A DNA stretch of 64,000 nucleotides from Chamaelirium japonicum (taxonomy: Eukaryota > Streptophyta > Magnoliopsida > Liliales > Melanthiaceae), in assembly GCA_947650365.1 (NCBI GenBank), contig OX393554.1:41375633-41439632 (forward strand), given 5' to 3'. Numbering within the stretch: the stretch's first letter is position 1; each line of letters begins with the position of its first letter. Positions 10,641-26,879 of the stretch are shown here, piece by piece. The notes under the pieces are model-generated. The model ran no database searches and was not told the origin of the DNA. It saw only the letters and a program-made list of their open reading frames with translations. The translations under genes and the position numbers were made by a program.

Positions 10641-10736
10641 AATATATATATATATATATATATATATATATATATATATATATATATATATATATATATA
10701 TATATATATATATATATATATATATATATATATATA

Positions 10737-10924
10737 GAGAGAGAGAGAGAGAGAGAGAGGGGTGTTAGGCTGCGGCGTGCGGTGCGTGCAGCGCACCGCA
10801 GCAGCCGTCTGATGCACTGCTGCGTGCATCGCACGCACCGCAGCAGTCCATCAGACGGCTGCGGGCCGGCGCCGCACGCACCGCACGCCGCAACTTATCA
10901 TTCCTCTCTCTCTCTCTCTCTCTC
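10737..10924. mobile_element. TA-embedded palindromic MITE 1 (GC-rich)
   Basis: The core (10759-10903) folds on itself: GGCTGCGGCGTGCGGTGCGT on the left pairs with ACGCACCGCACGCCGCAAC on the right. It contains CAGCCGTCTGAT and its complement ATCAGACGGCTG. The core is bordered by (GA)n at 10737-10758 and (CT)n at 10903-10924, then by (TA)n at 10641-10736 and 10925-10966, so even the compound microsatellites are mirror images. Related by its CCGTCTGATGCA core to the elements at 18843, 33032, 38382 and 51278. Confidence 0.8.
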
Positions 10925-10966
10925 TATATATATATATATATATATATATATATATATATATATATA

Positions 10967-12056
10967 GAGAGAGAGAGAGAGAGAGAGAGAGAGAAAGAGA
11001 AAACGGGGTATGAGCTGACAGCCCATTGCAATTTGAGCTGCCAGCCATGTGTCGACTTTTGATTCGACAGATTCATTAAAAAAAACAAAACAAAACAAAA
11101 AGGGACAGCTGTATACACACACCCCCCCCCTCTCTCTCTCTTTGGCTGAAACCCTCGGGCCTATCTCTCCTCCAGCGCCAATCGCACCAGCCCCGACCGC
11201 ACCTCCACCTCCGGTGCCTCTCCACTTCCACCTCTAACGCCGATAGCACCAGCCCCGACCACCACCCTCCCCTCCTCCGGCCCCAAAATTCTCCTCCGAC
11301 AATAATGGATCGCACCTGCCCCGACGCCGGCAGCTCCCGATCTACTTCCCCGACGCCGGCAGCCTCGATCTTCATCCCCAACGTTGGCAACCTCCCGACC
11401 AGTCAGCCCCCTCCCCGACCTCCACACCCTATTGCTCCCTCTGGCGCCAGTGGATCACACCCTCCCCGAAGCTCCGGCAGCACCCTACGGCAAACCCCCG
11501 ACCTCCCGGCGCCGATCGAAGCACCGACAGACCCCCGACCTCCAGCCCCCATTGCTCCCTCCGGCGTCGCCCGACCTCAAGCCCCCATTGCTCCCTTCGG
11601 CACTGATAGTAGCACCGGTAGACCCTCGTGCGATTGACCACCGGAGGCGGTGCCAGTGCGATTCGCTGATCCGCCGGGGTGGAGTGCGATTCACCAACGC
11701 CGGAGGGAGCAATGGGGGGTGGAAGTCGGGGAGGGGAGGGGACTGACTGGTCGGGGAACTGCCGGAGGGGGACGGGGTCGCCGGAGGGGGGCGAGGGTGC
11801 TGCCAGAGGGGATGAGCTCGGGCAGTGAAGAGAGAGAGAGAGAGAGAGAGAGAGAGAGAGGGAGAGAGATAGAGAGAGAAGGAGAGCGGTTGGTTAACAG
11901 CTGTAATACAGCTGTTAACACATCTGGTTTTTTTTTCTTTAATGGACGGTTGGATCGTTGGAATCGGACGGCTGCCAGTGACAGCTCAAATGAGCAAATG
12001 GGCTGTCAGCTCATACCCCGTATTCTCTCTCTCTCTCTCTCTCTCTCTCTCTCTCT
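10967..12056. mobile_element. TA-embedded TIR element 2, ACGGGGTATGAGCTGACAGC ends
   Basis: Left end ACGGGGTATGAGCTGACAGC (from 11003) pairs with GCTGTCAGCTCATACCCCGT (to 12021). These are wrapped by (GA)n on the left, (CT)n on the right, and then (TA)n on both sides (10925-10966 and 12057-12189). The interior of about 1 kb is CT/CG-rich with repeated GCCCCCGATTGCTCCCT-like and CCGGAGGG motifs in inverted arrangement, and has no gene. The same terminal sequence bounds the element at 20222-24020. Confidence 0.85.
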
Positions 12057-12189
12057 ATATATATATATATATATATATATATATATATATATATATATAT
12101 ATATATATATATATATATATATATATATATATATATATATATATATATATATATATATATATATATATATATATATATATATATATATA
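12057..12189. repeat. (TA)n array between elements 2 and 3
   Basis: About 66 TA units without interruption separate the right end of the ACGGGG element from the left end of the large Mutator-like element. The array changes to (GA)n at 12190. Confidence 0.98.
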
Positions 12190-13167
12190 GAGAGAGAGAG
12201 AGAGAGAGAGAGAGGGCCGATCTATTGTGAAACCCGGAAAAGATGTGAAAACCCTTATTTGCGAAACTATTGCCACAGCCGTCCGATTGAACCAAATCGA
12301 ATGGTCGTAAAAGTTGATGAAAACCAGATATTGTTTAATGCCATCGTATTTTGTCCTTATCCGCTCTCGTCCTTTCTCTCCTCTCGAGCGCCGATAGCGA
12401 AACCCTCGCCGTCGGAGGGCAGCCTCCATGAACTAGGATCCCGGCCGACCGAGCCCCATCTCACCTCGATCTACGAGCACGGATCACGACCGGCGATGCC
12501 CCACCTCGCCTCTAGGAGCGTGGATCGCGGCCGGCCGAACCCCATCTCACCTCTACGAACTCGGATCCCGGACGGCCGAGCCCCATCTCACCTCTACGAG
12601 CACGGATCGCGGCTGGCGAAGCCCCACCTCTCCTATACGAACACGGATCGTGGCCAGCGAAGCCCCACCTTGCCTCCACGAACCGGAAAAGGTGAGAAAC
12701 CCCTATCTCTCTCTCTCTCTCTGTCACACACAACCTTTCTCACTAATGTGGGTTTTTGGCCCTTCACCGTTCACCGGCAAGCAAATCCCTCAATCCCTTC
12801 GCCGTTCATCAATGATGGGCAGCGAAACCCATCCGATTGAAGTCGATCGCCGTCGTCTGCTTGATCAAATCCCTTGAGACCTTTGTCGTTGTCCACTCAA
12901 GCGAAGCCCTGCGCCTTTCACTAACGGGATGCATTGGAACCCACCACCGCCCTCAAGACCATGACCTTTGTCCACTTGAGCGAAGTCCACCATCTTTTGT
13001 ATGCAAATCATGTTCATATGTATGGAATGCATGCTTTAAAATGTGCGACAACCCCTTTCTCTGATCACTCTCTCTCCTCGCTCTGTCTCGATCTCCCTAC
13101 ATGATCACCATGCACATTCTCTGATTAAGAATGCATTGATATTTTTTTTTTATCGTAATGTACTGAC

Positions 13168-24592: not shown

Positions 24593-24990
24593 GGAATGGG
24601 ATGCTGCCTATCAAAGCAGCATTTTTTGCTGCTTTGAGACATTGTTTGACCATCCTAGAAGTTTTGGAATTTGATGAAATTTGGTGAGGGTGTTGTCTAG
24701 GGTAAGATGATCATCCTCACAAATTTTCATCAAATTCCAAAACTTCTAGGGGGTTCAAATGGTCGAAGCAAAATCAGTAGTCTGCAGTCACCGTTAAAAT
24801 CTGCAGCATTTTGCTTCGACCATTTGACCCTCTTAGAAGTTTTGGAATTTGATGAAAATTTGTGAGGATGATCATCTTACCCTAGACAACACCCTCACCA
24901 AATTTCATCAAATTCCAAAACTTCTAGGATGGTCAAACAATGTCTCAAAGCAGCAAAAACGCTGCTTTGATAGGCAGCATCCCATTCCTC
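24593..24990. mobile_element. TA-embedded MITE 10, GGAATGGGATGCTGCCTATC ends
   Basis: GGAATGGGATGCTGCCTATC at the left is the exact complement of GATAGGCAGCATCCCATTCC at the right, and pairing continues through CAAAGCAGC(A/G)TTTTT. The core holds the same two hairpins (AAGTTTTGGAATTTGATGAA, GATGATCATC) as MITEs 5, 6 and 17. Flanked by (TA)n at 24435-24592 and a short one at 24991-25007. Confidence 0.9.
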
Positions 24991-25007
24991 ATATATATAT
25001 ATATATA

Positions 25008-25364
25008 AAACAGCGTTCTTCGCTGCTTTGATTGGTCGCCGATGGCTATCAAAGCCTTGAACGACAACAAATGTCATTCGAACTCATAATCGGGAGGTGC
25101 TAGAAATCACCGGAGGTGGTTGCCGGGTGCGGATGTCCTCGGAGGTCACCGAATGAGATAGGGTGATGAATGGACGGCTCACAATAGAAGTAGTTACTAA
25201 AGTTCTCTGTCGGTGGAAGGCTGGAAGCCGATAGGTGGTGTCAGTGGAGATCACTGGTGGAGGTGATCAGAGGTTGTTTATGTTGATTTTGGCCGAAGAT
25301 CACATGTGGTGCGGCCGTGGTGGGTTGTCAAAGCAACAAAAACGCTGCTTTGAGAGGTAGCGTC
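25008..25364. mobile_element. TA-embedded element 11 with MITE-10-like ends and a different interior
   Basis: Left CAGCGTTCTTCGCTGCTTTG pairs with right CAAAGCAACAAAAACGCTG. These match the subterminal CAAAGCAGC...GCTGCTTTGA arms of MITE 10, but the roughly 280-bp interior is non-palindromic and GGAGGT/GGTGATC-rich. (TA)n at 24991-25007 and 25365-25475. Confidence 0.65.
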
Positions 25365-25475
25365 TATATATATATATATATATATATATATATATATATA
25401 TATATATATATATATATATATATATATATATATATATATATATATATATATATATATATATATATATATATATAT
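25365..25475. repeat. (TA)n array
   Basis: About 55 TA units between elements 11 and 12. Confidence 0.98.
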
Positions 25476-25851
25476 TGCAGCCGGGTAACGTGCAGGCTTA
25501 ACGTGCGGCACACCCTTCGGGGGTATTTTTGAAATTTATTTTTTTTTGGATTGATCACCTACCCTTGGATTGGACACACAAAAAATTTCATCCCGATCCA
25601 AGACCTGTAGGCTGTCCAAATGTGTTGATCAAAATGGCGAAAAAAATGAACGACCGATAAAAGAGCAACACATTTGGACGGCTTACAAGTCTTGGATCGG
25701 GCTGAAATTTTTTGTGTGTCCAATCCAAGGGTGGGTGATCAATCCCCCAAAAAAAAATCCAAAAATACCCTCTAAGGGGGTGGCCGCACGTTAAGCCGCA
25801 CATTACCCGGCCGCAATGTATCACTACTCTCTCTCTCTCTCTCTCTCTCTC
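25476..25851. mobile_element. TA-embedded MITE 12, TTGCAGCCGGGTAACGTGC ends
   Basis: Left GCAGCCGGGTAACGTGC pairs with right GCACATTACCCGGCCGC. Pairing continues (GGGGGTATTTTTG, TTGGATTGGACACACAAAAA, CCGATCCAAGAC) to a small central loop near 25640, giving an almost perfect 330-bp hairpin. (CT)n at 25828-25851 and (TA)n on both sides. Confidence 0.88.
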
Positions 25852-26879
25852 TATATATATATATATATATATATATATATATATATATATATATATATAT
25901 ATATATATATATATCTATATAATAAGGGACGACGGTTGTGGGGGGGACAAATGAACTGAGACAAAGCAATGGTCCAGATTTATGCAGAGGATGGGGATAA
26001 ATCACAGTCGTCCGTTTCCTAGCCCCACAGCCTTAAATCAGCCTCTTAAATCCCCCTCCCGAGACCCCCAATGCCCCCATCTGATCCGTCCGTCTATTCG
26101 AACCCACCTGATCCGCAGCCCCCATCCCAAACCCCATCCGTCCGATCAAACAGCCCCCATCCACAGCCCTATCTCTCTCTCGGTCTGCACGCTGTGCGCC
26201 CCCCCCCCCCCCCCCCTCGGAAACCCAAAGGCCGCCTCGCTCTCTCCCTCTCAGCCCGCTGTGCGCCCCCCCCCCTCGGAAACCCAAAGGCCTCCGACGA
26301 TAGCGACGACCGCCCCGACCTCGACTACCCTGATCTCCTCCTCCTCCTCCCCTGATCTCCGGAGAGATGAGATTAGGGTGAGGCAGAGCTTGCAGCCAGT
26401 AGCCGGCAGCCGTGGCCACGACCGACTCCTCCTCTTCTGCGATCTGCAGCGCCCCCAGGTGAGTTGGGTTTCCTCCCCCTCCATAACCCTCCTCCTCCCA
26501 CATGATCCCCCAAATCAAGCACCCAAATCCTCCAGCAAAACTATAGTCGCCCTATTTCCCGATCTCTCTCTCTCCTGATAGATACCTCTCTCTCTCCGAT
26601 TTAATCAGTTCCGATCTCTCTCTCTCTAAATCGACCGGCCCGCTGTGCGCCCCCTTCTCGGAAACCCAAATCTCTCTTTCTCTCTCTCTCTCTCTCATCT
26701 GCATCGCCGAACCCCGCCCCTTCATTCTCCCCCTCCGGTGGTGCGCTCGAAAGCGACCTTCCTTCTCCGGTGAACCCAGCAAGAAGAGGAGCGGATCTGC
26801 CAGGTGTTCCTCCTTCCCCCCTTTCTTCTCCGGTGAAGAGCAGCAAGAAGCGGAGGGGATCTGCACCTTCTTCCTCCAG

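Follow-up and report, generated by a model that had tools for sequence, protein, structure and literature searches.

The DNA examined here is a stretch of 64,000 nucleotides from Chamaelirium japonicum (GenBank assembly GCA_947650365.1, contig OX393554.1, positions 41,375,633 to 41,439,632 of the forward strand), called the window below and numbered from its first letter. Between positions 10641 and 25913, the focal interval, it carries a chain of elements with inverted termini that follow one another in (TA)n microsatellite arrays, and one of these links is a coding Mutator-like element (MULE). An original prediction made from the letters alone had described the chain as unrelated inverted-repeat elements inserted into TA repeats by a transposase with that target preference. 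Elements are named here by their left-hand coordinate and are listed in Table 1.

Results

Arrays of (TA)n with 8 or more units occur 25 times in the window and amount to 2262 bp, with 12 of them inside the focal interval; the longest TA run in 20 mononucleotide shuffles of the window was 12 bp. Eleven segments make up the focal interval and all 10 spacers between them are pure (TA)n of 17-209 bp, a count of TA flanks that is biased since the segments were picked for their position between arrays. Window-wide, the inverted ends pair in 16 of the 24 segments between arrays, at scores that 0-7 of 300 length-matched random segments reach; the tail of this null is inflated because the random segments were allowed to overlap elements. 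The predicted chain of inverted-repeat elements in (TA)n is thus borne out. The weakest pairing among the 16 is that of 25008 (7/300), and the same element is the exception in folding: of 16 elements folded with DNA parameters, 15 were at least 5.9 standard deviations more stable than their shuffles (10 shuffles each) and 25008 only 1.8, while 93% of the bases of 24593-24990 were paired.

The description of almost nothing but TA between consecutive elements holds for the ten spacers but not at 18843/18997, where no TA intervenes. The corresponding segment, 18844-19366, showed no end pairing above random (263 of 300 null segments reach its score) because its two ends belong to two different classes, the left fitting class A ends and the right class D ends, and it looks like two fused elements. 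The remaining 7 of the 24 segments did not stand out from the null either (21 to 298 of 300). When the 50 array borders were sorted by manual reading, 34 came from 17 segments with terminal inverted repeats (TIRs), 5 were Helitron-like ends, 1 was the cut-off element at 63833 and 10 were other sequence. That cut-off element is a further G-rich terminus leaving a TA array at 63833-64000, where the window ends. Neither border of the (TA)94 array at 42295-42483 shows a recognised element.

The cluster had been called dense, a wording that found no support: 12 arrays in 15.3 kb are unexceptional given 25 in 64 kb, such a count being reached in 698 of 5000 uniform placements. The striking feature of the focal chain is its end-to-end linkage, the array density being unremarkable by itself. 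Six terminal classes run along it, modular and not nested, none being seen to cut into another, and no insertion of a miniature inverted-repeat transposable element (MITE) or MULE inside another was noticed by eye. A single interruption was recognised in the focal chain: the class B element 20223-24019 contains, at 20793-23639, a TG..CA sequence of 2847 bp, probably a solo long terminal repeat (LTR). The link predicted at 20222 consists of this insert, with its target site duplication (TSD) ACAGC, and a TIR element about 945 bp long.

Classes were defined by clustering 60-base termini at a score cut-off of 18, the largest score among 3000 shuffled pairs being 14. Class A comprises 10737, 18844, 19966 (right end), 33032, 38392 and 51278, class B 10967, 20223 and 24052, class D 18985, 19491 and 62480, and class E 24593 with one end of 25008; 12190 is class C, 25476 class F, 62255 class G and 63046 class H. 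The left ends of 19966 and 25008 did not cluster, and the cut-off end at 63833 stands separately. The six classes found in the focal interval agree with the at least six foreseen.

The elements are less foreign to one another than their termini would imply. An all-against-all comparison showed a foldback interior of about 290 bp common to class D and E elements: the class E element 24593 is 88% identical to the class D element 62480 over 293 bp, 86% to 18985 and 78% to 19491. Parts of this interior are carried by 63046 (69-73% with D and E over 261-285 bp), 24052 (74-78% over 109-133 bp) and 62255 (69-86% over 43-131 bp); the class B members 10967 and 20223 are not in the group. To call the elements unrelated was too strong and we dropped that reading since interiors cross terminal classes; in good part they appear to be modular relatives with differing termini. 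Two class A copies, 33042-33184 and 38394-38536, differ by 1 mismatch in 143 bp and have differing right-hand neighbours, which suggests recent movement. A search with one class B terminus gave no exact match in prokaryote and virus contig collections, which are little informative for a plant element.

The link at 12190-18634, predicted as an element at 12212, does have TIRs within TA but is really a 6.4-kb coding element. Its TIRs of about 810 bp (~12214-13024 and ~17822-18632) are 95% identical over 800 aligned bases; the right-hand piece submitted to the comparison ended at 17821. The element sits between (TA)67 and (TA)104, flanks of pure TA which mask any TSD of the 8-11 bp usual in MULEs. 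On the minus strand one open frame encodes a FAR1 DNA-binding domain (PF03101, E 4e-22) and the adjoining one a MULE transposase domain (PF10551, E 3.6e-30), so that both a MULE transposase domain and long TIRs, features of the MULE superfamily, are present. The gene looks broken: a stop stands just ahead of the FAR1 domain, and the MULE domain lies in another frame, although an unrecognised intron could explain part of this. The outer TIR matches that of the MITE 63046 in 22 of 25 columns, the others being one mismatch and a 2-nt gap. The alignment score, 17.5, is above the maximum of 3000 shuffled pairs (14) and just below the clustering cut-off of 18. This match is the only direct transposase link found in the window.

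Further comparisons of the MULE-domain frame gave no relative among solved structures (two matches only, E 0.35 and 0.52) and none among viral contigs, a virus collection that is little informative here, and NCBIfam returned a single match, to IS256 transposase, far under cut-off (25.4 of 150 bits). An assignment to Stowaway or Tc1, elements with a TA TSD, was set aside on the coding link being a MULE, with no dedicated test. Among the 19 frames scanned, the only Pfam match above cut-off outside the MULE is a Cir_N domain (PF10197, 1.1e-08) in the minus-strand frame 2423-3007.

The edges of the elements show a polarity. GA tracts point into the element at 13 of 13 MITE or MULE borders with a script-detected tract, with TC tracts at 0 of 50 borders; a 14th GA border at 33015 was missed by the script and noticed by eye. 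The two borders of an element can differ: the coding MULE carries a long GA tract at one and just a single GAG at the opposite one, and in 51278 a long GA tract faces G-rich sequence at the other border. GA tracts reading into the element are expected from slippage of a GA terminus. The isolated element at 51260-51587 has no common word longer than 4 bp in the 20 bases outside its TA arrays, so the TA is not apparently part of a larger unit with a TSD.

The chain continues beyond 25914, to 38643, with a pair of Helitron-like elements, A (25914-32937) and B (33318-38293). A 22-base terminus starting TCTATATAATAAGG has two copies in the window, which leave TA arrays at 25914 and 33318. The two elements are 94% identical over their first 105 bases and 79% over their last 149, with few other short matches. 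Both right ends carry a short hairpin; A terminates in CTAG followed by T, and the terminus of B is changed. Helitrons have a 5' TC and a 3' hairpin followed by CTRR, and insert between A and T. Element A shows the 5' TC, the 3' hairpin, CTRR and the A/T insertion, and B the 5' end and the hairpin. Of 26 frames of at least 95 aa overlapping the region, 11 were tested; none gave a Rep or helicase domain, only sub-threshold matches to domains of unknown function. Non-autonomous Helitron copies need no Rep or helicase coding capacity, and on these grounds A and B are at best probable Helitrons of the non-autonomous kind. Their ends were spotted through the abutting TA arrays, and their association with TA is therefore not an unbiased count. 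At 38644 a reversed CTAG and hairpin end leaves a TA array; it is possibly the 3' end of a third, minus-strand Helitron-like element, for which no 5' end was found.

Several other repeats lie in or near element B. A tandem duplication of about 957 bp at 34394-36292, inside element B, is 98% identical over two compared 300-bp stretches, degenerate telomere-like TTTAGGG/CCCTAAA tracts stand in inverted orientation near the 3' part of element B (37404-37771), and 39006-39516 is a perfect tandem duplication with a 254-bp unit. The telomere-like tracts, together with the FAR1-MULE gene, point to plant DNA.

Table 1. Elements, open frames and arrays recognised in the window, in window coordinates
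Feature	Position	Strand
(TA)n array opening the chain	10642-10736	
Class A foldback MITE, GA/TC edges, 188 bp	10737-10924	
Class B TIR element, GA/TC edges, 1089 bp	10967-12055	
Class C MULE, 6.4 kb, TIRs ~12214-13024 and ~17822-18632, (TA)67 and (TA)104 flanks, FAR1-MULE gene that looks broken	12190-18634	-
Open frame, FAR1 DNA-binding domain, PF03101, E 4e-22	16829-17512	-
Open frame, MULE transposase domain, PF10551, E 3.6e-30	16248-16883	-
Class A element fused directly to 18985, no TA between them; inner limit approximate	18844-18984	
Class D foldback element	18985-19366	
Class D foldback element, 406 bp	19491-19896	
Class A-like element: right end in A, left end with purine tract unclustered	19966-20129	
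Class B element split by LTR-like insert	20223-24019	
Probable solo LTR, TG..CA, 2847 bp, 5-bp TSD ACAGC	20793-23639	
Element with class B termini, interior partly common to classes D, E, G and H	24052-24434	
Class E near-perfect palindrome, 398 bp, interior common to class D	24593-24990	
Class E-related element, ends weakly paired, no clear foldback	25008-25364	
Class F foldback element	25476-25851	
Helitron-like element A bounded by TA arrays; 5' end TC, 3' end with hairpin and CTAG	25914-32937	+
Class A MITE	33032-33184	
Helitron-like element B, ends common to A	33318-38293	+
Class A MITE, near-identical to the 33032 copy	38392-38536	
Isolated class A MITE in TA array, no recognised element beyond on either side	51278-51481	
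Class G foldback MITE	62255-62450	
Class D foldback MITE	62480-62937	
Class H MITE whose outer TIR nearly matches that of the coding MULE	63046-63386	

Discussion

With high confidence we read the locus as a microsatellite-linked array of non-autonomous MULE MITEs, of the SaTar or MiM kind, in which one link is a defective MULE encoding a transposase. The anatomy of the array, the coding link, the match of its TIR to one MITE and the GA polarity were observed directly. Mobilisation in trans, expansion of the arrays after insertion and the order of these events are inferred as the most likely way to arrive at such a structure. FAR1-MULE transposases acting in trans would move elements whose TIRs are compatible into short (TA)n tracts by cut-and-paste, and slippage during replication or repair would then lengthen the flanking TA and at times the terminal GA too. 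The lengthened TA would offer a new target on each side of the inserted element, and newcomers, entering spacers and not other elements, would build an end-to-end chain. A study of pineapple elements describes the same GA/TC polarity and explains it by terminal GA slippage (PMC8449440).

That the targeting step is insertion directed by a transposase is fairly likely, though this is held with less assurance than the nature of the array. The TA-preferring transposase of the original prediction is supported in so far as the anatomy fits MULE insertion into TA and one link encodes MULE domains, but a single such enzyme is no more than a possibility, given several terminal classes, Helitron-like elements in the same habitat and a published alternative by recombination.

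Several observations weigh against our interpretation. Of the seven named classes besides C, six have termini without a match to the TIRs of the coding element, H being the exception, so that MULE affiliation through its TIRs gives a close match for the 63046 class only and leaves the others unlinked. The border at 27465, which is unassigned to any MITE, has the same GA polarity, and the polarity alone is therefore not specific to elements. TSDs are unreadable inside TA arrays. Junction parity, the TA phase at the two junctions, which we took to survive slippage, was compared in 17 segments in order to separate cut-and-paste insertion from recombination. The 15 with an alignment score of at least 15 split into 10 even and 5 odd; a stricter filter for equal outer lengths leaves 3 segments, 2 even and 1 odd. 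Reading by eye gave 9 even and 2 odd, differing from the script, and for 51278 the two readings disagree, the parity depending on the anchor, so that the comparison does not favour either account. The idea that the TA arrays belong to the mobile unit is disfavoured only by 51278, which has no outer duplication, and this check thus rests on one isolated element. Finally, the near-identical copies 33032 and 38392 both adjoin related Helitron-like 3' ends, and duplication is possible for that pair.

A first alternative reverses cause and effect, the TA arrays being made by the elements: these would insert near-randomly in AT-rich or short-TA sites and slippage at their hairpin-forming ends would later produce the arrays. 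We consider this unlikely but worth keeping in mind; it overlaps with directed insertion and does not exclude it. Most of the elements are strong foldbacks, and arrays here reach 209 bp while empty sites average nine TA repeats in the text on Medicago (PMC4486113) and measure 6-8 bp in maize, as cited in PMC5907723. However, the (TA)94 at 42295-42483 borders no recognised element, and chaining needs repeated insertion into TA, so some preference for TA remains.

In a second alternative, set out in PMC5907723, excised circles with microsatellite filler recombine homologously into microsatellites, so that repeat homology and not a transposase does the targeting. This would account for families being mixed, for Helitron-like neighbours and for elements not being nested, and both junction parities do occur. 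No circles or filler are visible in the window, however, terminal slippage alone accounts for the GA polarity, and the published accounts describe relatives outside microsatellites that have TSDs (9 or 9/10 bp in Medicago/pineapple, 10 bp in guayule), which shows that the usual reaction exists. On balance recombination seems doubtful as the targeting step.

That the chain is a product of tandem or segmental duplication and not of serial insertion is very improbable: similar elements recur, and 33032 and 38392 are 99% identical and each lies beside a related Helitron-like 3' end, but focal neighbours differ in termini and order with no repeated multi-element unit noticed there, and the right-hand neighbours of that pair differ while the adjoining Helitron-like 3' ends are only 79% alike.

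Alongside directed insertion of MULE MITEs, we are led to a more speculative thought, to which we give little weight. The (TA)n arrays may be a common landing zone for transposons of different chemistry, several MULE lines as well as Helitrons, where foldback cores could switch both termini together while keeping their interior and so pass between transposases inside the TA habitat. Palindromic MITEs might switch termini, for instance, by recombination of one arm followed by snap-back copying.

The phenomenon itself is already published and the present locus is a rich example, not a new kind; it adds the coding FAR1-MULE link, interiors crossing classes, the GA polarity and Helitron-like neighbours in the TA habitat. 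The route of MITEs into TA microsatellites is called unclear in a study that lists 15 carrot families in TA stretches (PMC8227079). To this debate on the targeting mechanism the locus contributes an array in which one link encodes a transposase and GA tracts bear the mark of slippage, and its shared interiors and Helitron-like neighbours can be counted genome-wide, which bears on transposase targeting versus recombination. Helitrons tied to TA microsatellites are not described in the titles or abstract openings of the literature retrieved, and the word "helitron" is absent from the main text of PMC5907723; PMC4486113 names Helitrons in two places.

The closest counterparts are the SaTar, linear non-nested arrays of unrelated microsatellite-flanked MULEs described in guayule, rice, sorghum and citrus (PMC5907723). 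That account catalogues more than 300 clusters in guayule without nesting, and pineapple has 4024 clusters of Ac-mMITEs, with 46.1% of full-length copies clustered (PMC8449440), so the view that a dense and varied cluster would be notable has been overtaken. As described, SaTar share with our locus TIR elements with (TA)n flanks, non-nested arrays of different families, defective coding MULEs among the members, fusions of neighbours and a retroelement within one member (a rice member interrupted by Ty3); unoccupied TA sites are reported from indica rice, and 11 of 15 guayule families have members outside microsatellites with 9-10 bp TSDs (PMC5907723). By the same comparison of descriptions, what differs here is a link with FAR1 and MULE domains, interiors common to several classes and the Helitron-like neighbours.

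Like our elements, the Ac-mMITEs have TA flanks, cluster through adjacent insertion and carry GA at 5' and TC at 3' edges, and outside microsatellites they have 9/10-bp TSDs (PMC8449440). No length listed here falls within the 510-570 or 210-270 bp given for the two pineapple families, and the present locus has a coding MULE whereas the pineapple study reports finding none (PMC8449440). MuTAnT of Medicago, foldback MULEs in TA tracts accompanied by a coding element, AutoMuTAnT (PMC4486113), resemble our elements in their foldback modular TIRs, in TA microsatellite insertion and in a MULE with long TA flanks; in that account a single family is described with a coding element of 4873 bp, whereas here there are several, with a coding element of 6445 bp that looks broken. 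The MiMs of carrot and other plants (PMC8227079, which cites P-MITE), together with Micron of rice and TAFT of maize as cited in these papers, are by description likewise MITEs in TA stretches.

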